Below the pieces are notes generated by a model. The model saw only the letters and a list, made by a program, of their open reading frames with translations. It was not told the DNA's origin and ran no database searches. This document shows, piece after piece, positions 35,676 through 53,525 of a stretch of DNA of 64,000 nt. The stretch's first letter is position 1. Each line of letters opens with the position of its first letter. Position numbers and translations under genes: made by a program. Source of the stretch: Aquisphaera giovannonii (GTDB lineage: Bacteria; Planctomycetota; Planctomycetia; Isosphaerales; Isosphaeraceae); the NCBI RefSeq assembly GCF_008087625.1, contig NZ_CP042997.1:7812001-7876000 (forward strand), given 5' to 3'.

Positions 35676-36653
35676 CTAGCCGGCGATCGCGGCGCCTCGG
35701 TTGGCCGCCGTCGTCCAGGACACGGCCGACGGGCTGAGCTGGAATCCGAGGCGGAGCGAGGAACCGATCCGCTCGCGGTCCCGCTCCCCGAGACGCCCGA
35801 AGGCGTACAGCGTCGGCCCCCACGAGGTCTGCCCGGCGCCCACGAGGCCGATTCGACCCAGCTCCTCGACGATCGCCTCGGCCTGGGGGCTCGCGTAGGT
35901 GCCCCCCTGCGACGGGGCGAAGGCCCGGCCGACCTCGCGCTGAAGGTCACTCAGGGCCTCCCCGAACGCGGCGAGGTCGCGCTCGAGGACGGCGGGGACG
36001 AGGCCCAGGAGAACGAGCCGGCACAGGCGGTCCGTCGTCCGGTAGGGGAGCGGAGGGAGCTCCGAGAAGGCAGACCGCTCCTCGGCCCCGTGCCGGCCCT
36101 GGGGCCCGGGGGGCCGGATCAGCAGGATCGACCAATCCTCCGGGAAGGCGACCCGCGCGACCAGCGGCGGCGGTCCCGCGTCGGCGCGCGAGGCGCGGCC
36201 CCCGTCGACGATCAGCCCGCCGTGGAGGAAGCCGTGGAGGCCGATGCCGGATCGCCGGCCGCGGCCCGTCAGGCGGGCCATCTCGGGCGCGTCGGCCGGC
36301 GGGAGGCCTTCCAGCTCCAGCATCAAGCGGAGGACCGCCAGGCTGAGCTGGGTCCCGACGCCCAGGCCCACGTGCTCCGGCGACGCCTCCAGGACCTCGA
36401 CGTGACAGGGCGCCGCGGATGCGAGCGGATGCGACGCGATCGCGGCCAATTGCCGGATCTCCCGGAGGATCGCGAGGACGCGAGATGCCAGAGGTCCGGC
36501 GGCGGACCACTCAGGCGCCCGCTCGCCGGCGATCCGGATCCCCCCCGACTCGACCATCAGCCCCACGCCGCCGAACTGGCGAGGGGCGTCCGGCCCCCAG
36601 CCGAGGAGGCCGAAGTGGAGGCGCCCGGGCGTCCGGATCTCGGGGCGATTCAT
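35676..36653 (-). CDS. mptG: Beta-ribofuranosylaminobenzene 5'-phosphate synthase (beta-RFAP synthase)
   Basis: This GHMP-kinase-fold enzyme joins 4-hydroxybenzoate or 4-aminobenzoate to PRPP, releasing CO2 and PPi, the first committed step toward the arylamine part of tetrahydromethanopterin. The 325-residue protein carries TPGRLHFGLLGWG at the N-terminus, GLGVGTQLSLAVLRLMLE and GRGRRSGIGLHGFLHGGLIVDGG, the diagnostic motifs of the family. The start codon overlaps the end of the DUF447 gene by 4 bp, and it is the last gene of the leftward DHPS-like-DUF447-mptG unit. The longer upstream frame is rejected because the family starts near TP.RLHFG. Confidence 0.88.
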   Translation of the reverse strand: MNRPEIRTPGRLHFGLLGWGPDAPRQFGGVGLMVESGGIRIAGERAPEWSAAGPLASRVLAILREIRQLAAIASHPLASAAPCHVEVLEASPEHVGLGVGTQLSLAVLRLMLELEGLPPADAPEMARLTGRGRRSGIGLHGFLHGGLIVDGGRASRADAGPPPLVARVAFPEDWSILLIRPPGPQGRHGAEERSAFSELPPLPYRTTDRLCRLVLLGLVPAVLERDLAAFGEALSDLQREVGRAFAPSQGGTYASPQAEAIVEELGRIGLVGAGQTSWGPTLYAFGRLGERDRERIGSSLRLGFQLSPSAVSWTTAANRGAAIAG

Positions 36654-37255
36654 GGGACCCCCGCGCCATCCACGATGGGGCCGACTCCGGCGTTCCGGGT
36701 CACGTGATCCCGGAGGAGATCGAAGGCCGCCCGCTCGACCGCGCCCCCGGTCTTCTCCACCGGGACCGCCAGCCATTCGAGGTCCCGGAGGATGTCCTGG
36801 CGGGGGAGGAAGGCCGTCCGGGTCGCGAGGATCGCCGCCTCCAGGACCGCGTGCCGCGCCCTGTTGAAGCCGAGGAAGTCCCGGAGCCGGCCCTCGCGGA
36901 GCGTCTCCACGTCGACGCGGGCCCGAGCGGCTGAGTCGTCCAGGCCCAGGACCCGGAATTCATAGAACCGGCAGCAGTCCAGGAGGACCCAGCCGGCGAT
37001 CCGCTCCGCCTGCGCCAGCCGGGGCGCGGGCGTTGGCGTCAGGCCGATCGCGGTCTGGGCGAGCAGCAGGACGTCGTCCGTCACGTGGAAGACGCCGGCT
37101 CCCTGCGACCTCATGTTGCGGAACGTGGTCGAGGACGGGTAGGGTCGCAGCTCGAACTTCGCGAAGTCGAGGTCGGGGCCGAGCGTCATCCCCATGGGCG
37201 CGATGTTGACCTCGCCCCGCCCGTCCACCGTGGTCACGATCCCCTCGACGATCAC
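36650..37255 (-). CDS. DUF447 family protein of the H4MPT pathway
   Basis: A 201-residue DUF447 protein, a family found almost only in organisms with methanopterin-linked C1 metabolism. The N-terminal half resembles a flavin-binding split barrel (VNIAPMGMTLGPDLDFAKFELRPY, then NMRSQGAGVFHVTDDV). Its exact reaction is not known. The start is GTG at 37255, sharing GTGA with the stop of the upstream DHPS-like gene, and it overlaps the mptG start by 4 bp, so all three genes are translationally coupled. A longer in-frame Met upstream would run into that upstream gene and is unlikely. Confidence 0.85.
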   Translation of the reverse strand: MIVEGIVTTVDGRGEVNIAPMGMTLGPDLDFAKFELRPYPSSTTFRNMRSQGAGVFHVTDDVLLLAQTAIGLTPTPAPRLAQAERIAGWVLLDCCRFYEFRVLGLDDSAARARVDVETLREGRLRDFLGFNRARHAVLEAAILATRTAFLPRQDILRDLEWLAVPVEKTGGAVERAAFDLLRDHVTRNAGVGPIVDGAGVP

Positions 37256-38706
37256 GCCGGCTCCCCGTCTTCTGGCCCGGGCGGCCCCGCGGCGGGCGCG
37301 GTGTGGGCCGCCGCCGCGTGCGCCTTGCGGCGGGCGTGATGGCTCTCCTCGGGCTCGGTGAGGAATCCCCACTCCAGGGCTTGATCCTGCCGATAGTTCT
37401 TGCCGAGCGTCAAGGCGGTTTTCGCCTTCATGAGCTCGCATCCCAGGTAGAACGCATGCGACGGGTCCAGGCCCTCCATCTGCTCGAAGACCTCGAAGGG
37501 ATCGCGGCCCCGCAGGAACTGCCGGCCGTTCATCGCGTAGAGGACCCCGTCCTCGGCGAAGATCCGCCAGTTCGGGTCGCGGATGCGACGCTGAAGCTCG
37601 GCGAGGTTCTCACGCCCGAACCGCTCGACGCGGGGATCCCGGAGCATCACCAGGCGGGGCTCGACGTGCTTGGGCAGCGTCTTCCGCGTGACGGCGTGAT
37701 GGGCCAGCCGGCGGGCCAGGTCGATCTCGCGGACCGAGGACCGGGCCCAGTTGATCACGGCCGTGGTCAGGACGCTCCGGACCCCGATCTCCTGGCAGAA
37801 TCCGATGAGGACCGTGTTGATCCCCGCGCTGTCCGAGTCCGTCAGCTCCGTGAGGTTGCCGACCCCCATCATCATCGGCCACTCCGGCGCCCGGCGGCGG
37901 ACCTCCAGATATCGTCCCAGCGAGGCGGCGAAGCCGAAGCCGATCGGCTCCACGATCGGGTCCACGCGGTACGGGACGCCCCGGGATTCGAGGTAGGCGA
38001 CCGTCTCGTCGAGCCCGTCCAGCGAGCCCGGCCGGTCGGGGATGGCGACGACCTCGACCCCCCAGTCGGCGGCCCGCTCCCGGTTCGACTCGTTCACGCT
38101 CAGCACCAGCTCCGCCCCCGCGGCGGCCGCGGCCGAGACCTCGTCCGGGTCGAAGCTGTCTATCGAGACCCGGAACCCGCCGTCCCGTAGCGCCCGGACG
38201 GCGTCGCCCACGCCGTCCCAGCGTGCGGACGGGTCGCAGCCGAGGTCGATCACGTCCGCGCCCTCGCGCCGGAACGCCTCCGCCCGCTCGATCAGATCGC
38301 CCCTGCTAAGCCGGGGGGCGTGGTTGATCTCGGCGAGGATCTCGATGTCGAAGCCGCCGTAGCCCTCGTCCCGCGCCGGGTCGTGGCCGAAGTACCGCGG
38401 GAGCTCGCGCAGGTCCGCCGGCCCGAGGGCCACCTCCGCCTCTCCGGCGCGTTCCCGCACCGGGGAGAGGTCGCCGCCGCAGGCGCCGGGCAGGATGATC
38501 CGCGAGACGCCCGGCGGGACCTCGAGGTGTCGCGCGACCCATCGCGGGGTCATCAGCGCCGCGACGGTGATCGGCAGGACCGCGACCTCCGGGATGAAGC
38601 CGGCGCGGGGTGCCAGCTCTTCGAGGACCTGGCGGAGGGCGAACTCGGCGAGCCGGCCGGTGACGAACAGCAGTCTCGGTGGGTTGTCGTTCGGGCCTGC
38701 GCTCAC
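37252..38706 (-). CDS. Dihydropteroate synthase-like protein (H4MPT biosynthesis)
   Basis: A 484-residue protein whose central TIM-barrel carries pterin-binding signatures: FDIEILAEINHAPRLS (equivalent of the DHPS N-terminal strand), ADVIDLGCDPSA, and FRVSIDSFDPDEV. The N-terminal part (RLLFVTGRLAEFALRQVLEEL) and the C-terminal DUF6513-like part are typical of the DHPS-related proteins tied to methanopterin synthesis in archaea and methylotrophs. It probably joins a pterin to the beta-RFAP-derived arylamine. The GTG at 38706 has GAGG 6 bases upstream and fits family length. It is the first gene of the leftward three-gene unit. Confidence 0.85.
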   Translation of the reverse strand: MSAGPNDNPPRLLFVTGRLAEFALRQVLEELAPRAGFIPEVAVLPITVAALMTPRWVARHLEVPPGVSRIILPGACGGDLSPVRERAGEAEVALGPADLRELPRYFGHDPARDEGYGGFDIEILAEINHAPRLSRGDLIERAEAFRREGADVIDLGCDPSARWDGVGDAVRALRDGGFRVSIDSFDPDEVSAAAAAGAELVLSVNESNRERAADWGVEVVAIPDRPGSLDGLDETVAYLESRGVPYRVDPIVEPIGFGFAASLGRYLEVRRRAPEWPMMMGVGNLTELTDSDSAGINTVLIGFCQEIGVRSVLTTAVINWARSSVREIDLARRLAHHAVTRKTLPKHVEPRLVMLRDPRVERFGRENLAELQRRIRDPNWRIFAEDGVLYAMNGRQFLRGRDPFEVFEQMEGLDPSHAFYLGCELMKAKTALTLGKNYRQDQALEWGFLTEPEESHHARRKAHAAAAHTAPAAGPPGPEDGEPA

Positions 38707-38783
38707 GATCGTCCTCGCCTCGATGCGGATCAGGAGCGGATCCGCGAGACCGTTGTCGCTGCCCCTGGAACAGGGCCTCGCCC

Positions 38784-38970
38784 CTTTCTTATCCCCTCCC
38801 CCCACCGCGGAGGATGGCTAGGGAGAGGGGGTCCGGAGGGCCATCGAAAGTTTCGCGAGCCGGCGAGCAGGAGCGGGACTCGACGATCCGGCCCGAATCT
38901 TCTTGCAATGTCCGAGGCGGTCGCCCCCTCTCCCTAACCCTCCCCCGCGGTGGGGGGAGGGGATAAGAAG
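38784..38970. repeat. Inverted pair of about 48-bp palindromic intergenic repeats
   Basis: The segment 38784-38831 (CTTATCCCCTCC...CCACCGCGG...) reappears inverted at 38923-38970 with only a few mismatches, 91 bp apart. Each copy is GC-rich and pyrimidine/purine-skewed. It looks like a repetitive extragenic element. It lies in the 338-bp gap between the DHPS-like gene and the short-chain dehydrogenase, a stretch with no gene. Confidence 0.75.
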
Positions 38971-39044
38971 GGGACCTCCGCTCGAGTCGCGGGTCATGCC
39001 AAGTCCCAAGGAAGCGCGATGATAAGGTCTTGCACGGAAGTCAC

Positions 39045-39812
39045 TCATCGGACGGCTCCGCCGTTGATGCGGACCACCTGGCCGGTCACGAAGCGGGCCG
39101 AGGGGCTCACGAGGTAGCAGGCGGCCCCCGCCACGTCCTCCGCCGTGCCCCATCGCCGGAGCGGCACCTCGCGGAGGACCCGATCCTGCCACTCGGGCGG
39201 GGCGGTCTCGCCCCACTCCGTCCGGATCCAGCCGGGAGCCAGGGCGTTGACCCGGACCGCGGGCGCGAGGCTCAGCGCGAGGCTGCGGGTGAACGCCATG
39301 ATCGCCCCCTTCGTGGCGCCGAAGTACGCGCCCGAGTCGCCGTCCATCCCGGTCTCCGCCTGGTCCCAGCCCATGGTGACGATGGCGCCGTGCCCCTGCT
39401 CCTTCATCCTCCGGCCGATCTCCCGGCCGAGGCGGATCGTGGCGACCACGTCCACCGCCCAGAGGAGGTCGAGCTTCTCATCGAAGGACAGCTTGGCGCC
39501 CGGGCCGGTCAGGACGTCCGCGCCGGCGATGTGCAGCCAGGCGTCCAGCCCGCCCCACGTGCGCCAGGCCTCGTCGGCGAAGCGATCCGCCGCGGGCCGG
39601 TCCCCGAGGTCGGCGAGCAGGACGCGCGTGCGGACGCCCGTCGCGCGGAGGGTGCCGGACAGCTCCTCGGCCGCGGCGGCGGAGCGGTTGCCGTGGACGA
39701 GCACGTCCGCGCCGGCCGCGGCCATCGCGATCGCCGTGGCCCGGCCGATGCCCGAGGTGGCCCCCAGGACGGCGGCCCGCATGCCCCGCAACGGCTTGTC
39801 GGAAGGTTCCAT
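39045..39812 (-). CDS. Short-chain dehydrogenase/reductase with altered active site
   Basis: A 255-residue classical SDR: Rossmann motif GATSGIGRA (17-25), NAG-like HIAGAD, the YxxxK pair in AYFGATKGA, and a C-terminal GQVVRINGG. The usual Ser about 13 residues before the Tyr is missing: the strand reads VTMGWDQAETG in place of NISS. So it may be a redox enzyme with another catalytic residue or an inactive relative. Its position inside the methanopterin region suggests, but does not show, a role with pterin or C1 substrates. The start at 39812 is the first ATG in frame. It is divergent from the SGNH-like gene. Confidence 0.85.
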   Translation of the reverse strand: MEPSDKPLRGMRAAVLGATSGIGRATAIAMAAAGADVLVHGNRSAAAAEELSGTLRATGVRTRVLLADLGDRPAADRFADEAWRTWGGLDAWLHIAGADVLTGPGAKLSFDEKLDLLWAVDVVATIRLGREIGRRMKEQGHGAIVTMGWDQAETGMDGDSGAYFGATKGAIMAFTRSLALSLAPAVRVNALAPGWIRTEWGETAPPEWQDRVLREVPLRRWGTAEDVAGAACYLVSPSARFVTGQVVRINGGAVR

Positions 39813-39925
39813 GGGCGTGGGGTGGAGGGGGCTTACACGCCGGGCTGGTCCGCCCCGGCCGGGTGTCGTAAAGTCGTTCCGTCCACGCTACCCACGCCCC
39901 GTTGCTGGAGACAAGGCGAGAGCCC

Positions 39926-41134: not shown

Positions 41135-41152
41135 CCGGCGGCGGCCGCCGGT
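41134..41152 (+). terminator. Hairpin at the end of the SGNH-like gene
   Basis: ACCGGCGGCGGCCGCCGGT is a perfect palindrome overlapping the stop codon, followed by TTT. It immediately precedes the promoter of the fhc operon, insulating it. Confidence 0.55.
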
Positions 41153-41181
41153 TTGACTTGGGCTGTTGGCCCTGGGAGAAT
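41153..41181 (+). promoter_or_regulatory. Sigma70-like promoter for the fhc-mch operon
   Basis: TTGACT (41153-41158), 17-bp spacer, GAGAAT (41176-41181). The predicted start near 41188 gives a leader of about 60 nt to fhcB. The same TTGAC-17-GAGAAT arrangement recurs at 53595. Confidence 0.55.
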
Positions 41182-41248
41182 CGAGCCTGACGCCCGACCG
41201 CGGGCGTCGAGTCCTGACTTAGATCCCGCCCCCCAGACGAGTGGCTCG

Positions 41249-42577
41249 ATGCCCGATTCGCCTCCCGCCGACACCCGGACCACCGGCGGGGACAAGACGC
41301 AGGCCGCGACGATCGACGCCGTGACCTGCCTGGCCTGCGGCTGCCTCTGCGACGACCTCGTCGTCGCCTTCGACGGGTCGGGGCGGTTGGCATCGGTGCG
41401 CAAGGCGTGCCCGATCGGCGAGGCGTGGTTCCTGGAGAATGCGTCTCGGGCGGACGAGGAAGGCTGGGCGACGGCCCTGATCGACGGCGAGCCGGCCGAT
41501 CCCGTCGAAGCCGTCGCACGGGCCGGGGCCCTCCTGGCCGGCTCGCGGTCGCCGGTCGTCCTGGGGCTCGATCGGTCCACGAACGAGACCGTGGCCGCGG
41601 CGGTCGGCCTCGCGGATCGGATCGGGGCCTACGTGGAGGTCGGGGACGGCGCGTCGTCGACGCCTCGCATCCTGGCGTTCCAGCGTGCCGGCCGCGTCTC
41701 CGCGACGCTCGGCGAGGTCCGGGCCCGGGCGGACGTCGTCGTCTTGTGGCGGGCCGATCCTGTCGCGACGCATCCCCGGCACCTCGAGCGGTATTCGGCG
41801 GAGCCCCGCGGGCGATTCGTGCCCGAGGGCCGCGCCGGGCGGACCGTGATCGTCGTGGACACGGGCCGCACGGCGACGGCCGGGCGTGCGGATGCGACCC
41901 TCGCCATCGACGAGGATCGCGAATTCGAGGTCCTCTGGACGCTCCGCGCCCTCGTCCGCGATGCGGGCCTCGGCGACGACCGCATCCGCGCGGCGACGGG
42001 CTGCGAGCCGGAATCGCTCCGGGCCCTCGCGGCCCGCCTCCGGGCGGCCCGATACGGGGCGTTCTTCCTGGGCGAGGTCGCGGGCCCGTCCCCCGCCCGG
42101 GCGGCGGCGCGGATCGAGGCGGCGAACCTCCTGGTTCGCGACCTCCGCGAGCACACCCGGTTCGTGCTGCTCGGCATGGGCACGCCCGGGAATCGCACGG
42201 GTGCGGAGTCCGTGCTGGCCCGGCAGACGGGATTCCCGACCTGCGTGGACCTGGGCGCGGGCCACCCGGAGTCGCTCCCGGGCGTGGCAACCGCGTCGGC
42301 GGACGTGGCGTTGATCGTCGGCGAGGGGGCACCTCCGAGATATCCGGGAGCCGAGACGACCCGGATCGTGATCGGCCGGCCGGCCCTCGGCGCCACGCCG
42401 GATCGGGCGGCGGTCTGGCTGACGTCCTCGTTGCCAGGGCTCGACGAGGCGGGGACCGTGACCAGGGTGGACGGCATCTCGCTTCCGCTGCGTGCCCATC
42501 GACCGTCGAGATTCCCGGGCGAACGCGAGTGGATCACGCGGATCCACGACGCGATCGGCCACGGTGCGAGGGCCTGA
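41249..42577 (+). CDS. fhcB: Formylmethanofuran dehydrogenase-like subunit B (FhcB)
   Basis: The 442-residue protein is homologous to subunit B of archaeal formylmethanofuran dehydrogenase but belongs to the bacterial formyltransferase/hydrolase (Fhc) complex, which releases formate from formylmethanofuran. The N-terminus keeps CLACGCLCDD and KACPIGEAWF. The segment matching the archaeal Mo/W-ligand loop (STSCEAQ) reads RSTNETVAAA, without the cysteine, so redox chemistry at a metal-pterin is not expected. It leads the fhcB-A-D-C order, 5 bp before fhcA. The ATG at 41249 follows no strong ribosome binding site, but an earlier in-frame start would lie on the promoter. Confidence 0.92.
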   Translation: MPDSPPADTRTTGGDKTQAATIDAVTCLACGCLCDDLVVAFDGSGRLASVRKACPIGEAWFLENASRADEEGWATALIDGEPADPVEAVARAGALLAGSRSPVVLGLDRSTNETVAAAVGLADRIGAYVEVGDGASSTPRILAFQRAGRVSATLGEVRARADVVVLWRADPVATHPRHLERYSAEPRGRFVPEGRAGRTVIVVDTGRTATAGRADATLAIDEDREFEVLWTLRALVRDAGLGDDRIRAATGCEPESLRALAARLRAARYGAFFLGEVAGPSPARAAARIEAANLLVRDLREHTRFVLLGMGTPGNRTGAESVLARQTGFPTCVDLGAGHPESLPGVATASADVALIVGEGAPPRYPGAETTRIVIGRPALGATPDRAAVWLTSSLPGLDEAGTVTRVDGISLPLRAHRPSRFPGEREWITRIHDAIGHGARA

Positions 42578-42582
42578 GGACC

Positions 42583-44241
42583 ATGCCCACACTGCGGATT
42601 GCCGGCGGAAGGCTCGTGGACCCGGCGAACGGGATCAAGGACGAGGTCCGCGACGTCTGGATCGAGGACGGCAAGGTGGTCGCCCCCCCGCCGGATCCCT
42701 CGGCGCGGGCCGATCGCACGATCGACGCTCGCGGGTTCGTCGTGATGCCGGGCGGGGTGGACGTCCACTCGCACATCGCGGGGTCCAAGGTCAACGGGAC
42801 GCGGATGCTCCGGCCCGAGGAGCGTCGCGACCCGGAGTCGGTGTGGCCCCGACGGGACGGCTTCCGGTCGGGGACGATCGGCAGCGTCCCGTCCACCTTC
42901 GTCACCGGATACATGTACGGCGGGCTCGGCTACACGACGGCCGTGGACGCGGCCATCCCGCCGCTGTCCGCCCGCCAGGCCCACGCCGAGTTCCGGGACA
43001 CGCCCATCGTGGACAAGCTCATGCTCGTCCTGATGGGGAACAGCCACTCGGTGCTGGATCTCGTGGGCCAAGATGATCCGGATCGGCTCCGGCAGGCCGT
43101 GGCCTGGCTGCTGGACTCGGCCGGCGGGTACGGCGTCAAGGTCGTCAACCCCGGCGGCGTGGAGCAGTGGAAGCAAGGGGGGAAGAAGATCGCCCGCTGG
43201 GACGACCGGGTGGAGACGTTCGACGTCACGCCTACGCAGATCCTCCAGGGCCTCGCGGGAGCCGTGGATGAGCTGCGCCTGCCGCATCCCGTCCACCTCC
43301 ACGGCATGAACCTGGGCCTGCCGGGCAACTGGGGGACGACGCTGGAGGGGATGAAGGTGCTGGAAGGCCGCCGCGCCCACCTCGCCCACGTCCAGTTCCA
43401 CAGCTACGGCGGGTCGGCCGACGACCCGTCGAGCATGGACTCGCAGGTCGGGCCGCTGGCCGACTACCTGAACTCGCACCCGAACCTCTCCGCGGACGTG
43501 GGCCAGGTCCTCTTCGGCGAGACCACGAGCATGACCGCCGACGGCGCCGTGGGCCAGTACCTCGCCAACCTGACCGGCCGGAAGTGGCTCAGCATCGACG
43601 TCGAGCAGGAGGACGGCTGCGGCGTCGTGCCGATCACCTACGACGACCGGAACTACGTCCATGCCCTCCAGTGGGCCATCGGGCTGGAGTGGTTCCTCCG
43701 CGTCGAGGACCCCTGGCGGATCGCGCTCTCGACCGACCACCCCAACGGTGCGTCCTTCCTCAGCTATCCGCGGGTCATCGCACTGCTGATGGATAGGAAT
43801 CTCCGCGACGAGACGTTCGCGAGGCTGCCGGAGCGGCTGAAGGGCAAGACCGGCCTGGCGGACCTCTCGCGCGAGTACACCCTGGAAGAGGTCGCGATCC
43901 TGACCCGCGCGGCGCCGGCGCGGATCCTCGGCCTGCGGACGAAGGGCCACCTCGGCCCCGGGGCCGACGCCGACGTGACGATCTACGCGCCGGACGACGA
44001 CCGGCGGCGGATGTTCGCGATGCCGCGTTACGTGATCAAGGCCGGCGTGGTCGTCGTGGACGACGGCGACCTGCGGTCGGCCCCGGACGGGGACACCCTG
44101 CTCGTCGATCCGGGCGTGGACCCGCGGGCCCGCTCGGGCTTCGAGGCGAGGCTGGCGGAGGAGTCGTCGATCCACCCGGCGAACTTCCGGGTCCGGGCCG
44201 ACGAGGTGGCCCGGCCGCGGGCGGTGCCGGCGGGACATTGA
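42583..44241 (+). CDS. fhcA: Formyltransferase/hydrolase complex subunit A (FhcA)
   Basis: A 552-residue amidohydrolase-fold protein, the hydrolytic subunit that cleaves formylmethanofuran to methanofuran and formate. The first metal-binding motif is VDVHSHIAG (His 62 and His 64), HLHGMNLGLPGNWG and HLAHVQFHSYG carry further His ligands, and LSTDHPNGASF has the conserved Asp. GAGG lies 3-6 bases before the ATG, overlapping the end of fhcB. It is followed by fhcD after 13 bp. In methylotrophs FhcA works as a tight complex with B, C and D in the cytosol. Confidence 0.96.
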   Translation: MPTLRIAGGRLVDPANGIKDEVRDVWIEDGKVVAPPPDPSARADRTIDARGFVVMPGGVDVHSHIAGSKVNGTRMLRPEERRDPESVWPRRDGFRSGTIGSVPSTFVTGYMYGGLGYTTAVDAAIPPLSARQAHAEFRDTPIVDKLMLVLMGNSHSVLDLVGQDDPDRLRQAVAWLLDSAGGYGVKVVNPGGVEQWKQGGKKIARWDDRVETFDVTPTQILQGLAGAVDELRLPHPVHLHGMNLGLPGNWGTTLEGMKVLEGRRAHLAHVQFHSYGGSADDPSSMDSQVGPLADYLNSHPNLSADVGQVLFGETTSMTADGAVGQYLANLTGRKWLSIDVEQEDGCGVVPITYDDRNYVHALQWAIGLEWFLRVEDPWRIALSTDHPNGASFLSYPRVIALLMDRNLRDETFARLPERLKGKTGLADLSREYTLEEVAILTRAAPARILGLRTKGHLGPGADADVTIYAPDDDRRRMFAMPRYVIKAGVVVVDDGDLRSAPDGDTLLVDPGVDPRARSGFEARLAEESSIHPANFRVRADEVARPRAVPAGH

Positions 44242-44254
44242 GGAGGCAGCGGCG

Positions 44255-45178
44255 ATGCAGATCGGCGGGGTGAAGATCGCGGACACGTTCGCCGAGGCGT
44301 TCCCGATGACCGCCGCGCGGGCGATCGTCACGGCCGACACCGCGGCCTGGGCCGAGACCTGCGGCCGCACGATGGCCGGCTACGCCACGAGCGTCATCGG
44401 CTGCGACGCCGAGGCGGCCATCGAGCGGACGCTCGCGCCGGAGGAGACGCCCGACGGCCGGCCCGGCGTCAGCGTCCTGGTCTTCGCGTTCAGCCGCGAG
44501 GCCCTGGAGAAGGCGATGGTCAAACGCGTCGGCCAGTGCGTGATGACCTGCCCGACGACGGCCTGCTACAGCGGCCTGCCGGCCGGCGAGAAGGCGATCA
44601 AGGTCGGCGGCAGCCTGCGATACTTCGGCGACGGCTGGCAGATCTCCAAGAGGCTGGCCGGCCGCCGATACTGGCGGATCCCGGTGATGGACGGCGAGTT
44701 CACCTGCGAGGAACTGTTCGGCACGACCAAGGGAGTGGCCGGCGGCAACCTCATCCTGCTCGGCACCGACCGGGCCGGCGTTTTGCGGGCCACCGAGGAG
44801 GCCGTGGCGGCGATGCGGCGGGTCCCGGACGTCATCCTCCCGTTCCCGGGCGGCATCGCCCGATCGGGCTCCAAGGTGGGGAGCAAGTACAAGGCCCTGC
44901 GGGCGAGCACGAACACGGCCTACGCGCCCACGCTCCGGGGCCTGGTCCCGACCGAGCTGCCCGAGGGCGTGTCGTGCGTCTACGAGATCGTGATCGACGG
45001 CCTGACGCTGGAGGCCGTCGAACGCGCCACCACCGCCGGCCTGCACGCCGGCGCCCGGGCCGACCTCGGCGTCACGGCGATCACCGCGGGCAATTACGGC
45101 GGCAAGCTCGGGCCGTTCCACATCCGCCTCCACGACGTGCTGAAATCGAGTGCCGCGCCGACCGGAGCGGGGGGATGA
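44255..45178 (+). CDS. fhcD: Formylmethanofuran:tetrahydromethanopterin formyltransferase (FhcD)
   Basis: The enzyme moves the formyl group between N5-formyl-H4MPT and methanofuran, feeding FhcA. The 307-residue sequence matches bacterial and archaeal Ftr along its length: IADTFAEAFPMTAARAIVTA at the start, FAFSREALEKAMVKRVGQCVMTCPTTAC, RYFGDGWQISK, FTCEELFGTTKGVAGGN, and the C-terminal AITAGNYGGKLGPFHI. GAGGAGG lies 9 bases before the ATG. It sits between fhcA and fhcC with gaps of 13 and 4 bp, and its place inside the operon is conserved in methylotrophs. Confidence 0.97.
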   Translation: MQIGGVKIADTFAEAFPMTAARAIVTADTAAWAETCGRTMAGYATSVIGCDAEAAIERTLAPEETPDGRPGVSVLVFAFSREALEKAMVKRVGQCVMTCPTTACYSGLPAGEKAIKVGGSLRYFGDGWQISKRLAGRRYWRIPVMDGEFTCEELFGTTKGVAGGNLILLGTDRAGVLRATEEAVAAMRRVPDVILPFPGGIARSGSKVGSKYKALRASTNTAYAPTLRGLVPTELPEGVSCVYEIVIDGLTLEAVERATTAGLHAGARADLGVTAITAGNYGGKLGPFHIRLHDVLKSSAAPTGAGG

Positions 45179-45182
45179 GACG

Positions 45183-46016: not shown

Positions 46017-46050
46017 TCCGAAATCGAGCGCGACGACAGGTGGGCCCATC

Positions 46051-47001: not shown

Positions 47002-47015
47002 CCGGGAGCGAGCCG

Positions 47016-47909
47016 ATGCCGACGCCCACGATCGCCGCCCTCGCCTCCGGATTCGGCTGGCACGTCACGGACCTCCTCCGCGCCGCCGAGCTGCTGGGGG
47101 TCCGCCTCGAGGTCGCGCCATTCCCGGAGGTCTCGGCCCGCGTGGGGGGCGGCCCGGCGCGGGTCGGGGCCGGCAAGATCGACCTGACCGGCCTGGACGG
47201 CGTGCTCGTCCGGATGATGCCTCCGGGGACCCTGGAGCAGGTCGTCTTCCGGATGGACGCCCTCCATCGCGTGGCGGCCGCCGGCGTCCCGGTCTGGAAC
47301 CCGCCGCGGGCGATCGAGGCGGCCGTGGACAAGTACCTCACGCTGGCGACGCTCGATCAGCACGGGATCGCCGTGCCGGCGACCTGGGTCGGCCAGTCCG
47401 CCGAGGATGCGCTGCGGGCCTTCGAGGAGCTCGGCGGCGACGTCGTGATCAAGCCGCTGTTCGGCTCCGAGGGCCGGGGCATCCTCCGCGTCTCGGACCG
47501 CGAGATCGCCTGGCGGAGCGTCCACGCGCTCGAGCGGCTGGGCGCGGTCCTGTACCTCCAGCGGTTCGTCCGTCATCCCGGCCATGACGTGCGGGCGTTC
47601 GTCCTCCGGGGGCGGGTCCTCGCCGCGATGCGGCGGTCCGCGACCGGCGGCGAGTGGCGGACGAACGTCTCGCTCGGGGGCCGCGCGGAGCCGGCCAGGC
47701 TCGACCGGGCCGCCGACCGGCTGGCGCTTGCGGCCGCGCAGGCCATCGGCGCCGAGGTGGCCGGGGTGGACCTCGTGGAAGACCTCGACCGGGACGAGCT
47801 CGTCGTCCTGGAGGTGAACGCCGTCCCGGGCTGGAAGGCCCTCTCCGCCGTGACGAAAGTCGACGCGGCGGCGGCGATCCTCGAGGCGCTCCGGGACCAG
47901 GCGCGATGA
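47016..47909 (+). CDS. RimK-type ATP-grasp ligase, probable H4MPT-modifying glutamate ligase
   Basis: A 297-residue ATP-grasp enzyme related to RimK and MptN (tetrahydromethanopterin:alpha-L-glutamate ligase of methanogens). ATP-grasp features are VVIKPLFGSEGRGILRV for the nucleotide loop, LYLQRFVRHPGHDVRAFVL, and the metal-binding ELVVLEVNAVPGWKAL. It probably adds glutamate or another amino acid to the cofactor or a precursor. The ATG at 47016 is preceded by GGGAGCGAG. The stop overlaps the next start as ATGA. Location right after mch supports a cofactor role, but the substrate is an inference. Confidence 0.85.
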   Translation: MPTPTIAALASGFGWHVTDLLRAAELLGVRLEVAPFPEVSARVGGGPARVGAGKIDLTGLDGVLVRMMPPGTLEQVVFRMDALHRVAAAGVPVWNPPRAIEAAVDKYLTLATLDQHGIAVPATWVGQSAEDALRAFEELGGDVVIKPLFGSEGRGILRVSDREIAWRSVHALERLGAVLYLQRFVRHPGHDVRAFVLRGRVLAAMRRSATGGEWRTNVSLGGRAEPARLDRAADRLALAAAQAIGAEVAGVDLVEDLDRDELVVLEVNAVPGWKALSAVTKVDAAAAILEALRDQAR

Positions 47910-48817
47910 CGGGCACCGGCGGCGACGTGCGGGGCGGGCCGGCCTCCAGCCTCTCCGTCGGGCGGCTGGCGGAGATCGCCTGCATCCTGGAGGTCTCCGC
48001 CCGCAAGCCGGGGAACGTCCACCCGGGGGCGTCGTTCCGGGACCTCCATCACCTCGACTTCCTCCTCAGTGCCGGCGCAATCGCGGGCCCGCTCGACGAG
48101 GCCCGCCATCGTGGGGTCGGGCGTAGCATCCTGGCGGCGACGGAGGCCACGCGGCGGGTCGTCCGCACGAACACGAACCTGGGGATCATCCTCCTGCTGG
48201 CCCCCCTGGCCGCCGTGCCCGCCGAGGTCGGGCTGGCCGAGGGGATCGAGTCCGTCCTCGCGGCGACGACGGTCGAAGATGCCCGCGCGGCCTACCGGGC
48301 CATCCGGCTGGCGATGCCCGGCGGGCTCGGCCGCGCGGCGGAGCAGGACGTCGCGGACGAGCCCACCGCGACCCTCCGCGAGGTCATGTCCCTCGCCGCG
48401 GACCGGGACCTCATCGCCCGCCAGTACGCCGACGGCTTCCGCGAGGTCCTCTCCGAGGCGGCGCCGATGCTCAGCCAGGCGGTACGCGGGGGCTCGCCCC
48501 TGGAGCCCGCCATCGTCGGCACGTTCCTGGGCCTGCTCGCCCGCCACGAGGACACGCTCATCGTCAGGAAGGCCGGGCGGCAAGTCGCCGCCGAGGCCTC
48601 GCGGAAGGCCGGCGCGGTTCTGGAGGCCGGAGGCGTGGGGACGGCCGCCGGTCGGGAGCGACTGGCGGAGCTCGACGCCTGGCTCCGCGCCGAGGGCTCG
48701 CTACGCAACCCCGGCGCGACGGCGGACCTCGTCACGGCGGCCTTGTTCGCGGCGCTCCGGGACGGCACAATCCCGTTGCCCCGCGATCCCGGTCCGGCCG
48801 GCTGGTCGGGCGATTGA
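47906..48817 (+). CDS. CitG/MdcB-like protein of the H4MPT cluster
   Basis: A 303-residue homologue of triphosphoribosyl-dephospho-CoA synthase (CitG/MdcB; COG1767). Motifs are ACILEVSARKPGNVHPGASF, DFLLSAGAIAGPL and RTNTNLGIILLLAPL. Genes of this type occur in methanopterin C1 clusters without any citrate lyase or malonate decarboxylase genes, so the substrate here is probably a C1 cofactor precursor, with attachment of a phosphoribosyl group a plausible reaction. The ATG overlaps the upstream stop (ATGA), so translation is coupled. The tail is short and Pro/Gly rich. Confidence 0.83.
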   Translation: MTGTGGDVRGGPASSLSVGRLAEIACILEVSARKPGNVHPGASFRDLHHLDFLLSAGAIAGPLDEARHRGVGRSILAATEATRRVVRTNTNLGIILLLAPLAAVPAEVGLAEGIESVLAATTVEDARAAYRAIRLAMPGGLGRAAEQDVADEPTATLREVMSLAADRDLIARQYADGFREVLSEAAPMLSQAVRGGSPLEPAIVGTFLGLLARHEDTLIVRKAGRQVAAEASRKAGAVLEAGGVGTAAGRERLAELDAWLRAEGSLRNPGATADLVTAALFAALRDGTIPLPRDPGPAGWSGD

Positions 48818-48852
48818 GCGGGGCCCGCCGCCCTCCCGGGAGACGCCCTCCG

Positions 48853-49347: not shown

Positions 49348-49390
49348 GGCGGACGCCAGCCTTCCTGGACGGAGGTTAACCCCGCCGGAT

Positions 49391-49897
49391 TCACCCGCGC
49401 AGGCCGAGCGCCTCGCGGATCGCCGGCTCAACCTTCGCGGGCGTGGTGATCGGCGCGAACCGGCGGATCGGCCGGCCATCCCGGCCGATCAGGAACTTCG
49501 TGAAGTTCCACTTGATGGAGCGGCCGAGCAGTCCCGGGAGCTCGGTCGTCAGCCAGCGGAACACCGGGTGGGCCCGCGGGCCGTTCACGTCGACCTTCTC
49601 GAAGACGGGGAAGCTCACGCCGTAGTTGACCAGGCACGTCGACTCGATGGCCTGCGCGTCGCCCGGCTCCTGGTTGCCGAACTGGTTGCAAGGGAACCCG
49701 AGGATGACCAGGCCGTCGCCCTCGTACTTCTTGTACAGCTCTTCCAGGCCGGCGTACTGGGGCGTGAAGCCGCACTTGCTCGCCGTATTGACGGCCAGGA
49801 CGACCTTGCCGTCGTAGCGCGAGAAGTCGACGTCCTCCCCGCGCAGGTTGCGGGCGTGGAACCCGTGGAAACCGCTGGTCCGCTCGTCGGTCTGCAT
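49391..49897 (-). CDS. Glutathione peroxidase-family thiol peroxidase
   Basis: A 168-residue peroxidase reducing hydroperoxides with thioredoxin or glutathione. The catalytic motif NTASKCGFTPQY has Cys 42, and FPCNQFGNQEPG and WNFTKFLI supply the Gln and Trp of the catalytic tetrad. A Cys in FPCNQFG is the likely resolving residue of thioredoxin-dependent members. ATG at 49897 follows GAGGAGG by 8 bases, which favours it over a longer frame. It interrupts the H4MPT cluster on the opposite strand and has no visible link with it, beyond being downstream of the HisA-like gene. Confidence 0.93.
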   Translation of the reverse strand: MQTDERTSGFHGFHARNLRGEDVDFSRYDGKVVLAVNTASKCGFTPQYAGLEELYKKYEGDGLVILGFPCNQFGNQEPGDAQAIESTCLVNYGVSFPVFEKVDVNGPRAHPVFRWLTTELPGLLGRSIKWNFTKFLIGRDGRPIRRFAPITTPAKVEPAIREALGLRG

Positions 49898-49982
49898 CGG
49901 CTGGGCCTCCTCACGAGACGCTCGCAGGACGTGGTCATCGTAGGCGCCCGGGGCGGCTTCGACAACCGCGCCCGACATCGGC

Positions 49983-50735
49983 TCAGGGCCGGAGGGCGGC
50001 CAAGGCTCGGGCGTCGATGCGGCCGTCGTGGAGCGCCGAGCCGATCAGGACGGCCGAGGCCCCCGCCGCACCGAGCCTCGCCGCGTCCTCGATCGACGAG
50101 ATCCCTCCGCCGATGGCAAGCTCCGCATCGGGGAGGCGATCGCGGAGCCACGCCAGCAGGCCCTCGGTCCCGACACCTCGACCGCGACCGACCCGGGCGA
50201 GGTCCAGCAGCAGCAGGCGGCGGAGGCCGAGATTCGCGGCCAGGAGGGCGACGTCGGCCGGATCTCGCGAGGGCCACCCGTCCCCCGGCGCGAACCGGGG
50301 CACGCCTTCGAAGAGGTCGAGGCTGAAGACGCAGCGTCCGGGGCCGACCCGGTCGAGGATCGGCGGGATGGCCCGCGGCCCTCGCAAAGTCTCGAGCCCG
50401 AGGACGACCGTCGCCGACGTCGGGTCGGCGAGCGGCCCGAGGTCGTCCGACGACCGGATGCCGGCGTCGATCCAGGGCCGCAGGCCGTGATCGATGAGTC
50501 GGTTGTAGAGCGAGAGGGAAGGCGGGCCGCCGGCGATCGCGTCGAGGTCGGCGAGGTATGGCTCGTCCAGGCCGAGGGCGTCGCGATAGGCGAGGGCGAT
50601 CGAGATCGGGTCGCTGGAGGGGTGCAGGAGGCTGCGGAGGTCCCCATAATGGGAACGCAGCCCGCCGACGGCGTGCACGGCGCGGCCGCCTTTCACGTCG
50701 AGGACGGGGATCACGCGAGGCGGGCGAGACGGCAT
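49983..50735 (-). CDS. HisA-like TIM-barrel protein of C1 clusters (COG1411 type)
   Basis: A 250-residue TIM barrel related to HisA: VIPVLDVKGGRAVHAVGG at the N-terminus, YLADLDAIAGG with the Asp, IDAGIRSSDDL, and the phosphate-binding AIGGGISSIEDAARLGAAGASAVLIGSAL. Histidine synthesis is not indicated by neighbours; relatives lie next to methanopterin and methanofuran genes in archaea and methylotrophs. It probably isomerises or condenses a phosphorylated precursor. Its ATG (50733-50735 read on the minus strand) overlaps the start of the divergent ATP-grasp gene. GAGGGG lies about 3 bases before it; a GTG at 50714 is the alternative start. Confidence 0.85.
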   Translation of the reverse strand: MPSRPPRVIPVLDVKGGRAVHAVGGLRSHYGDLRSLLHPSSDPISIALAYRDALGLDEPYLADLDAIAGGPPSLSLYNRLIDHGLRPWIDAGIRSSDDLGPLADPTSATVVLGLETLRGPRAIPPILDRVGPGRCVFSLDLFEGVPRFAPGDGWPSRDPADVALLAANLGLRRLLLLDLARVGRGRGVGTEGLLAWLRDRLPDAELAIGGGISSIEDAARLGAAGASAVLIGSALHDGRIDARALAALRP

Positions 50736-51780
50736 GGGCCCCTCGGGGACGACGGTCCTGGTGCACGAATGGGTCACCGGCGGCGGCCTCGCGGGCGAGG
50801 CCATGCCGCCGTCGCTGGCGGCGGAAGGGTCCGCGATGCGCCGGGCGCTGGCGCGGGAGTTCGCCGCCGCCGGCCTTCGCGTCCGGGTCACGCTCGACGC
50901 CCGATTTTTGGAGGACGATCCGGGTCCCTGGTCCGTCGTCCGGCTCGTCGGGACGGACGCGGAGGGCCTCATCCCGGCCGCCAGGGAGGCGGATTATACC
51001 CTCGCGATCGCGCCCGAGACAGCGGGCGTGCTCGCGGGGCTGGCCCGGGCGATGGAGGCGGAGGGCGTCCGATCGCTGGGCTGCTCGGCCGCCGCGATCG
51101 ACCTCGCGGGCGACAAGGCCCGGATGGCCCGGTGGCTGGAGGACCATGGCTTCGAGACGCCCGCATCCCGCGTCGTCGTACCCGCCTCGGGCCTGCCGCG
51201 AGGCGTGCGCTTCCCGGCCGTCCTGAAGCCCATCGACGGCGCGGGGGCGATCGACACGTACCGGATCGACGGCCCCGACGACCTGCCCCCGCGCGGCCGG
51301 GCCATGCGGCTCGCGCTCCTCCAGGAATACCGGCCCGGGGTGCCGATGAGCGCAAGCTTCCTCGTCGACGGCGGGCGCGCCGAGCTCGTCGCGACGGGCA
51401 GGCAGGACGTCGTCATCGAGGGGGGGCGCTTCGTCTACCGCGGCGGCTCGCTGCCGGTCCCCTGCCCCGCCGCCGTCCCCTCGCTCGTGCGGCTCGTCGA
51501 ATCCTTGCCGGGCCTCCGGGGGCTGGTCGGCGTGGACTTCCTCTGGGACCCGGATCGCCGAGAGGCGGTCGTCCTGGAGATCAACCCGCGGCCGACGACC
51601 TCGGTCGTCGGGCTCTGCCGGCTGCTGCCGCCGGGCCTGCTCGCGCGAGCCTGGCTCGCGGCCTGCGACGCGCCGGGCTTCGAGCCGCCGACGCCCGGCA
51701 CGCTCGCGGCGTCGATCGGCCCCGGAGTCCGTGCGGACTTCGAGGCCGGCGGGCGGTCGGAAATCGTCCAGGTGGATTAG
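50734..51780 (+). CDS. ATP-grasp ligase, MfnD-like (methanofuran biosynthesis)
   Basis: A 348-residue ATP-grasp enzyme of the COG1821 type that includes MfnD, the tyramine:L-glutamate ligase of methanofuran synthesis. The N-terminus has VLVHEWVTGGGLAG, the mid-region AAIDLAGDKARMARWLEDHGF, the nucleotide-binding FPAVLKPIDGAGA, and the metal site VVLEINPRPTTSVVG. It would couple glutamate to tyramine or to a related amine. The ATG overlaps that of the divergent HisA-like gene (CATG), so its promoter lies inside that gene. It is followed 10 bp later by the MfnF-like gene. Confidence 0.87.
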   Translation: MGPSGTTVLVHEWVTGGGLAGEAMPPSLAAEGSAMRRALAREFAAAGLRVRVTLDARFLEDDPGPWSVVRLVGTDAEGLIPAAREADYTLAIAPETAGVLAGLARAMEAEGVRSLGCSAAAIDLAGDKARMARWLEDHGFETPASRVVVPASGLPRGVRFPAVLKPIDGAGAIDTYRIDGPDDLPPRGRAMRLALLQEYRPGVPMSASFLVDGGRAELVATGRQDVVIEGGRFVYRGGSLPVPCPAAVPSLVRLVESLPGLRGLVGVDFLWDPDRREAVVLEINPRPTTSVVGLCRLLPPGLLARAWLAACDAPGFEPPTPGTLAASIGPGVRADFEAGGRSEIVQVD

Positions 51781-51790
51781 AGAGACGATC

Positions 51791-52867
51791 ATGCAAAAGG
51801 ACCCGGACCCTTCGACGACGGCCTGGCTCGCCCTCGACGTCGGCGGCGCGAACCTCAAGGCGGCCCACCAGTCGGGCGACGTCGCGACTTCGCCATTCGA
51901 GGTCTGGAAGCGGCCCGAGGGGCTTGCCGCCGCCCTGGCAGAGCTGGCCGGGTCGCTCCCGGAATATGGCCGCGTTGCCCTGACGATGACGGCCGAGCTC
52001 TGCGACTGCTTCCGGACCAAGGCGGATGGGGTCCGCGCCGTGCTGGAGGCGGTCGAGTCGGCCGCCGGCGGGCGTCCCGTCTGGACCTGGGGGACCGACG
52101 GCCGCTTCCACGATGTGGCCTCCATCCGCCGGGAGCCGGCGGCGGCGGCGGCCTCGAACTGGCTGGCGCTCGCCTCCGTGGCGGCGGGGATCGCCGGCAA
52201 CCGGCCCGGGATCCTCATCGACGTGGGCTCCACCACGACGGACCTCATCCCGCTGGACCGCGGGGCCGTCGCCGCCCGGGGGCGGAGCGACCCCGAGCGG
52301 CTGAGGACCGGGGAGCTCGTCTACGCGGGGGTCCGGAGGACGCCCGTCTGCGCCCTCGCCACCGAGCTGTCGCCCCGCGGAGGCGAGCCGATCGGCCTGG
52401 CCGCCGAGCTGTTCGCGACGACCCTGGACGTCTTCCTGACGACGGGCGACATCCCGGAAGACCCGGGCGACCTCGCCACGGCGGACGGCCGGCCCGCCAC
52501 GATCGACGCGGCGCGCGACCGCCTCGCGCGGATGATCGGCGACGACCGCGAGGGCGTCGCGCCGGCCGACGCCCTGGCGCTGGCCAGGGCTGCGGAGGCC
52601 TGCCTGCTGGATCGGCTCGCCAGGGCCGCCCGGCGGCTGTGTGCCGCGACGATCGGCGAACCGGACGTGATCCTCGTGTCGGGATCGGGCGAGTTCCTGG
52701 CCCGCCGCGTCGCGGACGCCGCCTTCGGCCACGGCCCGGCCCGGATCGGCCTCTCGGAATCCTGGGGGCCGGCGGGCTCCACGGCCGCGTGCGCCTGCGC
52801 CCTGCTGCGCCTGGCCGCGGCACGCGACGCATCCGCGGTGACGGCCGGAGGGGGCCGACGTGATTGA
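51791..52867 (+). CDS. ASKHA-type protein, MfnF-like (COG1548)
   Basis: A 358-residue member of the hydantoinase/oxoprolinase-like ASKHA family tied to methanopterin-linked C1 pathways. Phosphate-binding motifs are WLALDVGGANLKAA at the N-terminus and GILIDVGSTTTDLIPL in the middle, and VILVSGSGEFLAR near the end. In methanogens MfnF joins the phenol amine and aminomethyl-furan parts of methanofuran, and that is the likeliest role. The ATG at 51791 follows AGAGA. Its stop codon overlaps the GTG start of the MfnE-like kinase by 8 bp, so the two are coupled. Confidence 0.86.
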   Translation: MQKDPDPSTTAWLALDVGGANLKAAHQSGDVATSPFEVWKRPEGLAAALAELAGSLPEYGRVALTMTAELCDCFRTKADGVRAVLEAVESAAGGRPVWTWGTDGRFHDVASIRREPAAAAASNWLALASVAAGIAGNRPGILIDVGSTTTDLIPLDRGAVAARGRSDPERLRTGELVYAGVRRTPVCALATELSPRGGEPIGLAAELFATTLDVFLTTGDIPEDPGDLATADGRPATIDAARDRLARMIGDDREGVAPADALALARAAEACLLDRLARAARRLCAATIGEPDVILVSGSGEFLARRVADAAFGHGPARIGLSESWGPAGSTAACACALLRLAAARDASAVTAGGGRRD

Positions 52868-53525
52868 TCCTCCTGTCGGGGAGGACGTCGCCTCATGGGG
52901 GCTGGTTGGGGCCGTCGTGGTCAAGGTCGGGGGCAGCCTGCTCGGCTGGCCCGAGCTGCCGGGAAGGCTGGCCGGATGGCTCGACGCGCAGCGAGCGTCC
53001 GGGGCCCCCTCCGCCGATCCGGTGCTCATCGTGATCGCCGGGGGGGGCCCCTTCGCCGACGCGGTGCGGGACCTGGACCGCGTCCACGGCCTGGGGGATG
53101 AGGCGGCCCATCGCCTGGCGATCCGGTCGATGGACCTGACGGCGGCCCTCCTGGCCGGGCTCCTGCCGGGGTCGAGGCTCGTCGCGGGCCGGCGAGAGCT
53201 CCTCGCGTCGTGCCGCCTCGGGGCCGTGCTCGTCGCCACGCCCGGGCCGCTCCTGCGGGATCTCGACGACGCGGGGCCGGATCCGCTCCCCTCGTCGTGG
53301 GACGTCACCTCGGATTCGATCGCGGCGAGGATCGCGGCCCGCCTCGGCGCGTCGCGTCTGGTCCTGCTCAAGAGCCGGCCTATTGCGGACGGTGCGAGCC
53401 TCCGGGAGGCGGCCGCCATCGGCCTCGTCGATCCACGATTCCCGGAGGTGGCCGCGGGCCTCCGCCGCATCGAGGTCGTCTCCCTGCGCGACCCGGCGCT
53501 GCCGCCCTCCCGTCTGCGTCCGTGA
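52860..53525 (+). CDS. Amino acid kinase-family protein, MfnE-like
   Basis: A 221-residue AAK-fold kinase: VVVKVGGSLLG at the N-terminus, VIAGGGPFADAVRDLD for the phosphate loop, WDVTSDSIAARIAARLGASRLVLLKSRP for the nucleotide site. In methanofuran synthesis MfnE phosphorylates the aminomethyl-furan phosphate so that MfnF can use it. Start GTG at 52860 overlaps the upstream stop; a later GTG in front of VKVGGS is possible. It is the last gene of the cluster and is followed by a hairpin terminator. It is shorter than typical AAK proteins, as MfnE also is. Confidence 0.86.
   Translation: MIDPPVGEDVASWGLVGAVVVKVGGSLLGWPELPGRLAGWLDAQRASGAPSADPVLIVIAGGGPFADAVRDLDRVHGLGDEAAHRLAIRSMDLTAALLAGLLPGSRLVAGRRELLASCRLGAVLVATPGPLLRDLDDAGPDPLPSSWDVTSDSIAARIAARLGASRLVLLKSRPIADGASLREAAAIGLVDPRFPEVAAGLRRIEVVSLRDPALPPSRLRP

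Follow-up and report, generated by a model that had tools for sequence, protein, structure and literature searches.

The window analysed here is a stretch of 64,000 nucleotides of the Aquisphaera giovannonii genome (C1:7812001-7876000; 10.5 Mb, 3 contigs). Between positions 35676 and 53525 it carries a gene module for one-carbon transfer linked to tetrahydromethanopterin (H4MPT) and methanofuran, together with a gene for a short-chain dehydrogenase/reductase (SDR) that we propose as the probable dihydromethanopterin (H2MPT) reductase of the pathway. The module lies in two divergent blocks: the minus strand carries the row SDR>DHPS-like>DUF447>beta-RFAP synthase, and the plus strand carries fhcBADC, mch and the RimK-type ligase, citG-like and PTPS genes, followed by a HisA-like gene on the minus strand and by mfnD/F/E-like genes. 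An original prediction, made from the sequence alone, had named about 14 genes in this interval, and profile searches with Pfam and NCBIfam models matched every one of them; the synthesis genes for both cofactors and the formyl-to-formate branch, which it had placed at this locus, were likewise matched by profiles, FhcB with a score under the equivalog cut-off. The SDR gene was absent from that list, as were a GDSL-like and a glutathione-peroxidase-like gene. Gene names that derive from models scoring under their cut-offs are to be read as "family of" and not as proven equivalogs. Since the GC content of the region is ~70-75%, open reading frames (ORFs) over-long at the 5′-end are expected, and corrected starts were placed near 42583 for FhcA, near 47016 for the RimK-type ligase and at 47906 for CitG. 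The features are listed below, beginning with the row headed by the SDR.

39045..39812, minus strand: SDR of 255 aa with residues D121-W149-F164-K168, first in the row; Pfam adh_short_C2, 156 bits
37252..38805, minus strand: DHPS-like protein (DUF6513 + pterin-binding); PF20123, PF00809; TIGR00284, 169 bits, under cut-off
36650..37441, minus strand, start probably near 37255: DUF447 protein; PF04289/PF20766; PDB 3b5m, E 1.8e-34
35676..36776, minus strand: beta-RFAP synthase family; TIGR00144, 155 bits, over cut-off; NF040726 equivalog, 164 bits, under cut-off 328
41153..42577, plus strand: FhcB, subunit B of the formyltransferase/hydrolase complex; TIGR03129, 258 bits, under equivalog cut-off 328; no Pfam match
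42583..44241, plus strand: FhcA; TIGR03121, 656 bits, from residue 396 of the longer ORF 41407-44241
44255..45178, plus strand: FhcD formyltransferase; PF01913/PF02741; TIGR03119, 431 bits
45150..46016, plus strand: FhcC; TIGR03122, 215 bits
46051..47001, plus strand: Mch, methenyl-H4MPT cyclohydrolase; PF02289, 400 bits; TIGR03120, 389 bits
47016..47909, plus strand: RimK-type ligase, MptN/MyfB family; PF08443, 112 bits; NF040720 MptN, 245 bits, under cut-off
47906..48817, plus strand: CitG-like; PF01874, 240 bits
48814..49347, plus strand: PTPS-family protein with CExxHGH motif; PF01242, 76 bits
49983..50972, minus strand, start probably near 50738: HisA-like (Orf17 type); PF00977, 92 bits; TIGR00734, 92 bits, under cut-off
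50734..51780, plus strand: MfnD-like ATP-grasp ligase; PF02655, 91 bits; NF040722, 68 bits, under cut-off
51731..52867, plus strand, start probably 51791: MfnF-like (Orf9 type); TIGR03123, 258 bits, over cut-off; NF040623, 141 bits, under cut-off
52860..53525, plus strand: MfnE-like kinase; PF00696, 40 bits; NF040622, 55 bits, under cut-off
39902-41134, plus strand: GDSL-like, inside the module
49391-49978, minus strand: glutathione-peroxidase-like, inside the module

The profile scores and the recurrence of the gene order in relatives rule out a chance assemblage. beta-RFAP synthase catalyses the first committed step in H4MPT synthesis, and the DHPS-like protein is proposed to condense the pterin with beta-RFAP. 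By analogy with the proteins described in PMC8141765, the RimK-type ligase may polyglutamylate a methanofuran-type cofactor and the HisA-like protein may act in the methanofuran branch. The GDSL-like gene was found beside the SDR gene again in several relatives from the same order.

mch was found in 42 of 45 genomes of the order, the other three being draft assemblies 64 to 92% complete, and in 28 of the 294 genomes of a phylum sample, the window's own included. Twenty stretches around mch were compared: in the 14 taken from the order itself the row was largely conserved (exception G304), and in the six taken from other families it was scattered. The DUF447 gene was present in 46 of 46 mch-bearing genomes, to which its search was limited. 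The DHPS-like gene occurred in 29 of the 294 phylum genomes: all 28 with mch, plus the single-contig planctomycete G167, where this DUF6513 gene (L137; G167:C1:4272000-4291999, 8733-10196) is present without mch or an SDR orthologue. The module is thus a common trait of the order, and its kind is already in print. Such genes in planctomycetes were on record by 2004 (PMC5020050), and the H4MPT modules of Planctomycetes and Proteobacteria (PMC5020050; PMC8141765) share with this one Fae, methylene-H4MPT dehydrogenase, Mch, FhcABCD and beta-RFAP synthase, as well as the DUF447, DUF6513, CitG-like, RimK-type, HisA-like and Mfn genes, in a gene order that is partly the same.

The remainder of the pathway in the genome

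The original prediction had listed fae and mtdB/C as missing here, which holds for the window; elsewhere on the chromosome the genome search that it proposed found both genes, and not the genome-wide absence that would have spoken against it. fae is present in two copies, at C1:8016033 (243 bits; TIGR03126, 256 bits) and C1:9823824 (191 bits), and a further C-terminal fae-like partial match over the cut-off lies ~1 kb from the second copy (G000:C1:9822676-9824318). An mtdB/C-type methylene-H4MPT dehydrogenase gene (PF09176, 110 bits, C1:8016586) directly follows the first fae, the pair lying ~160 kb downstream of mch, and mfnB was located at C1:3333678. An H4MPT/methanofuran-linked formaldehyde module in a planctomycete is therefore supported, with fae and the methylene-H4MPT dehydrogenase gene present in the genome. 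Near the first fae copy lie an ATP-grasp gene, whose product is 27-34% identical to the protein encoded between mtdB and mch in proteobacterial clusters, and a DUF1464 gene (PF07318; L007 16146-17141 (+)). DUF1464 adjoins the same ATP-grasp gene and fhc genes in three Gemmatimonadota metagenome-assembled genomes (MAGs; L293, L294, L295), a neighbourhood that suggests another function-unknown gene tied to the H4MPT pathway.

A dihydromethanopterin reductase had also been noted as missing from the window. For dmrA, PF00186, a model that may not reach DmrA itself, matched a single dihydrofolate reductase (DHFR) gene, directly beside thymidylate synthase (thyA) and hence in a folate context. For AfpA/DmrB, TIGR02699 gave no match in the genome at E ≤ 0.001. 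A dihydromethanopterin reductase was therefore unaccounted for, in keeping with PMC5020050, where an Afp gene for the last step of H4MPT synthesis was not recognised in planctomycete genomes.

Co-occurrence and linkage of the SDR gene with the module in Planctomycetes

Orthologues of the window SDR were sought by tblastn in the 294 genomes of the phylum sample at E ≤ 1e-35, and 29 genomes matched. An orthologue was present in 27 of the 28 mch-bearing genomes, the window's own included, all at E ≤ 6.6e-61, and in none of the 266 genomes without mch (Fisher p 2e-37, shared ancestry ignored); the next two matches (6.5e-37 and 8.0e-36) came from genomes without mch and were ordinary SDRs with Ser and Tyr. 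With distances taken between aligned ends, 14 of the 28 mch-bearing genomes, representing seven families (f1, f2, f3, f52, f54, f69 and f75), carried the SDR gene on the 5′ side of the DHPS-like gene, in the same orientation and at ≤0.7 kb. In another 19 genomes from the order, it was ≤0.7 kb away in 11, 1.5 to 5.8 kb upstream in six and outside the fetched stretch in two. In G185, the mch-bearing genome without an orthologue, a pterin-4a-carbinolamine dehydratase gene is found 5′ of the DHPS-like gene (L150 9473-9832 (+)); such genes also occur in proteobacterial clusters.

Fold, active site and phylogeny of the SDR

An AlphaFold2 model built with 35 orthologues gave an SDR fold (pLDDT 93, pTM 0.92), and the Rossmann fold with its glycine-rich GX3GXG motif is present. 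The closest structures were FabG proteins (4jro, Z 34.2, rmsd 2.0, 240 aligned), and the best PDB sequence match was a glucose/ribitol dehydrogenase. PTR1 was not among the 50 structure matches listed, which comprised FabG-like and other SDRs. In an alignment to 3emk the catalytic Asn, Ser, Tyr and Lys correspond to D121, W149, F164 and K168, so the window SDR departs from the classical N-S-Y-K tetrad; FabG and the glucose/ribitol dehydrogenases have the same fold, but all three of their catalytic Asn, Ser and Tyr are replaced here. The pattern D-W-D-F/Y-K was found in 100 of 100 clade rows (95 Phe, 5 Tyr), a few of which are same-genome duplicates, whereas among 26 other SDRs position 149 was Ser in 25, position 164 Tyr in 26 and position 121 Asn in 15. 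The change at D121 is accordingly less telling than the ones at W149 and F164. Rows were assigned to "clade" or "other" by eye from residues and scores, and the division was then upheld by a tree of 123 rows (3 of 126 dropped: two duplicates and the fragment L246), in which a branch supported at 100/100 separates the SDR clade from the other rows. In this tree the window SDR has an Isosphaeraceae MAG (Singulisphaera sp., L192) as its nearest named relative, and the planctomycete label therefore holds.

The PDB entry 3itd, a Tyr-to-Phe mutant of 17-beta-HSD, is titled "inactive", which makes ordinary alcohol/ketone chemistry unlikely for the SDR clade. Such a tyrosine would not be needed to reduce the N5=C6 imine in a dihydropterin. 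An idea that D150 is the exact aspartate of PTR1, 13 residues before the tyrosine, was dropped, the 3emk alignment placing W149 on Ser and F164 on Tyr.

The SDR clade outside Planctomycetes

GTDB contigs were scanned with the SDR clade alignment, the best 80 matches serving as a sample, and mch was sought for 40 of the 80 loci; L245, L263 and L267, mch-bearing planctomycetes that entered through ordinary SDRs, were not covered by the SDR-clade search. Among the matches listed, the SDR occurred in three Gemmatimonadota MAGs, in all three 453-669 bp 5′ of the DHPS-like gene, and these stretches also held MfnE (3/3), HisA-like and MfnF (2/3), and DUF447 and beta-RFAP synthase (1/3) genes. It also occurred in four gammaproteobacterial MAGs and in one Chloroflexota MAG, in all five without pathway neighbours. 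In the gammaproteobacterium L232 the SDR contig and the mch/fhc/fae contig both have 66,551 bases, and the genes lie ~32 kb apart. mch was present in 13 of the 19 SDR-clade genomes tested (Gemmatimonadota 3/3, Gammaproteobacteria 4/4, others 6/12), and in 6 of the 21 genomes brought in by ordinary SDRs, four of these six being planctomycetes. A MAG contig labelled "Bacteroidales" (L209) carried an SDR inside the planctomycete part of the clade, probably a binning error.

An entire H4MPT formaldehyde oxidation pathway with nearby biosynthesis genes has been described from a Gemmatimonadetes methanol-use locus (PMC5103831), and the three Gemmatimonadota MAGs found here have the SDR gene beside such genes; the word "dihydromethanopterin" is absent from the main text of that paper. 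On the co-occurrence and the distinct clade, the notion that the SDR is an ordinary FabG-like bystander was rejected, and the SDR very probably belongs to the H4MPT pathway in Planctomycetes and Gemmatimonadota.

AfpA/DmrB in the same gene place in Proteobacteria

Plasmid searches yielded 36 records with mch and 27 with AfpA, and 15 proteobacterial plasmid stretches with mch or AfpA matches were examined. AfpA/DmrB lay directly 5′ of the DUF6513 gene, on the same strand and at -18 to +42 nt, in 12 of the 12 stretches holding both, which come from alpha-, beta- and gammaproteobacteria; of the other three, a Thiodictyon stretch lacks the DUF6513 gene, and two stretches from a single Azospirillum argentinense plasmid lack AfpA. 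Six of the flavoproteins were scored, giving 78-109 bits with TIGR02700, "dihydromethanopterin reductase (acceptor)", and 76-93 bits with TIGR02699, all under the cut-offs; the TIGR02699 cut-off of 192 bits is thus too high as a criterion, and scores were compared instead. An AfpA hidden elsewhere in the SDR genomes was rejected, as 29 planctomycetes (27 with the SDR, G185 and G167) gave only short partial TIGR02699 matches of ≤30.6 bits, and all 16 further SDR-clade genomes stayed at ≤24.8 bits. In bacterium GBS-1, which bears mch and an SDR match of the ordinary kind, the DHPS-like gene is closely followed on its 3′ side by AfpA (140 bits).

The AfpA list includes 23 of the 30 mch plasmids listed (of 36), the seven misses all being Azospirillum. 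None of the 36 mch plasmids carried an SDR at clade level, and among 72,556 plasmid records a single SDR match at E ≤ 1e-25 was found, with the 35% identity and 113 bits of an ordinary SDR; chromosomes were not searched. On the A. argentinense plasmid (L300/L305), where AfpA is missing from its place, a 286-aa RibD-C/DHFR-like reductase is encoded in the same region and is maybe yet another replacement; A. oryzae has AfpA.

That AfpA holds this place in Proteobacteria, and that the SDR genomes searched gave no comparable AfpA match, indicates that in Planctomycetes and Gemmatimonadota the SDR occupies the position of the known reductase gene. The loci of these two phyla thus differ from the proteobacterial clusters in having the SDR where AfpA/DmrB stands. 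It shares with the flavoproteins DmrB/AfpA and DmrX the place directly 5′ of the DHPS-like gene and the proposed reaction, but belongs to a different family.

The SDR as a candidate dihydromethanopterin reductase

From the exchange of gene place, the altered active site and the lack of both a comparable AfpA match and another DHFR, the SDR is probably the dihydromethanopterin reductase of Planctomycetes and Gemmatimonadota. Gene content, linkage and co-occurrence are observed, as are the missing AfpA-level match and the changed tetrad; its substrate, reaction and nucleotide cofactor we infer. In the proposed scheme, Fae and methylene-H4MPT dehydrogenase would load formaldehyde onto H4MPT and oxidise it, and Mch and FhcABCD would take the one-carbon unit on to formate. 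The other genes of the locus would make the cofactors, H4MPT and the methanofuran-type one, with the H4MPT skeleton coming from SDR>DHPS-like>DUF447>beta-RFAP synthase. The SDR would act last in the H4MPT branch as an NAD(P)H-dependent enzyme that transfers hydride to position C6 in the ring of the 7,8-dihydropterin, standing in for the flavoprotein DmrB/AfpA found at the same gene place in Proteobacteria. Reducing a C=N bond may not require a phenol as proton donor, which, as we propose, would explain why Tyr gave way to Phe, Ser to Trp and Asn to Asp. It also seems reasonably probable that the whole SDR clade is a new, structurally unrelated type of H2MPT reductase, with N-S-Y-K rewired to D-W-F-K, that displaced DmrB/AfpA from its gene place in Planctomycetes and Gemmatimonadota and probably serves in some Gammaproteobacteria too.

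Several observations weigh against this reading. G185 bears mch without an SDR orthologue, and its AfpA match is only partial and of 22 bits; 12 of the 28 mch-bearing genomes have no SDR gene within the region retrieved with the DHPS-like gene, and G291 has it several kb away on the 3′ side. Outside the phylum, no pathway genes stand beside the SDR in the four gammaproteobacterial MAGs among the matches listed. Six of the 19 SDR-clade genomes (four Thermoguttaceae, one Chloroflexota, one other planctomycete) have no mch; all six are MAGs with divergent copies, yet they weaken a strict link between SDR and mch. The residue after the WD pair is Gly or Ala in five of them and Met in the Chloroflexota MAG, and mostly Gln (in a few His, Met or Thr) in rows from mch-bearing genomes; these SDRs (L220, L225, L227, L234, L242 and L238) have perhaps changed function or are pathway remnants. 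An mch-bearing Methylococcaceae MAG has no AfpA match and only an ordinary SDR match, and plasmids of the A. brasilense group of Azospirillum carry mch with neither AfpA nor SDR matched in the plasmid search, so a missing AfpA alone does not call for the SDR. Among solved structures, FabG and glucose/ribitol dehydrogenase come closest. The motifs of SDR pteridine reductases, YX3K and TGX3RXG (PMC13259868), are both absent: the window SDR has FX3K, with Tyr in 5 of 100 clade rows, and LGATSGIG, with Gly at the Arg position in the clade rows printed. The SDR therefore does not belong to the known SDR pteridine reductases, and has in common with PTR1, FolM and PruA the fold and the proposed reduction of a dihydropterin. 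The mch-free genomes with the SDR, G185, the Methylococcaceae MAG and the Azospirillum plasmids are left unexplained, and the same data fit another reductive step of the H4MPT pathway.

H4MPT synthesis includes a reductive opening of the ribofuranosyl ring to the deoxyribitol chain. The main alternative assigns the SDR to this earlier reduction and the final one to another protein; the same co-occurrence and linkage would be expected of it, the SDR adjoins the DHPS-like and beta-RFAP synthase genes, and the glucose/ribitol dehydrogenase match is of a fitting kind. We nevertheless regard it as unlikely, though with some claim to attention. Ring opening should occur in all makers of H4MPT, yet the mch plasmids, as searched apart from their chromosomes, hold no clade-level SDR, and the gene in the place of the SDR on plasmids belongs to the known final-reductase family.

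DUF447 is a flavin-binding protein, and it might itself be the planctomycete dihydromethanopterin reductase, with the SDR as an accessory. Its universal presence in the mch-bearing genomes searched, its position in the same row and the existence of solved homologues speak for this. DUF447 also stands beside AfpA in Proteobacteria, however, and four archaea used as controls (Methanocaldococcus jannaschii, Methanosarcina acetivorans, Haloferax volcanii and Sulfolobus acidocaldarius) have it too, so it is no simple replacement of AfpA, and such a role is improbable. Another alternative, in which the one DHFR acts on dihydrofolate and dihydromethanopterin alike and the SDR is unrelated or regulatory in one-carbon metabolism, agrees with the finding of only one DHFR and with the DHFR relationship of the Methylorubrum DmrA (PMC6193120), but it is very improbable, given that this DHFR adjoins thymidylate synthase and that the SDR co-occurrence would be left unexplained.

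Relation to known systems and implications

The dihydromethanopterin reductase reading would place the SDR beside DmrA of Methylorubrum, a member of the DHFR family with the same proposed reaction (PMC6193120) that is likewise a non-homologous replacement (PMC5020050). A second enzyme replacement is possible in the PTPS gene. The planctomycete and Gemmatimonadota loci have PTPS, with the CExxHGH motif in the window and in all 24 of the related loci found, whereas several proteobacterial clusters instead have a gene annotated as dihydroneopterin aldolase; that of Phyllobacterium looks more like MfnE. Work on PTPS-III enzymes suggests that such a protein can make 6-hydroxymethyl-dihydropterin.

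Our literature search, which left subscription papers mostly uncovered so that a description elsewhere is possible, found no link between methanopterin, a short-chain dehydrogenase and planctomycetes, and within the same coverage nothing on DUF6513 or on PTPS-III with methanopterin. For pteridine reductase, short-chain dehydrogenase and tetrahydromethanopterin together it returned only PMC13259868, a review on other pterins.

The new point is therefore the SDR candidate, the module itself being already known in planctomycetes. For the gap left at the last H4MPT step, Afp, in planctomycetes (PMC5020050), it offers one named candidate with a specific prediction, the reduction of H2MPT. If the assignment is true, this gap would be closed in the one-carbon pathway of Planctomycetes and Gemmatimonadota, and the clade would exemplify the remodelling of an SDR that lacks its tyrosine into an enzyme reducing C=N bonds. 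The gene would serve as a marker for the H4MPT pathway in metagenomes, and would add a further non-homologous replacement to the debate on the spread of H4MPT pathways.

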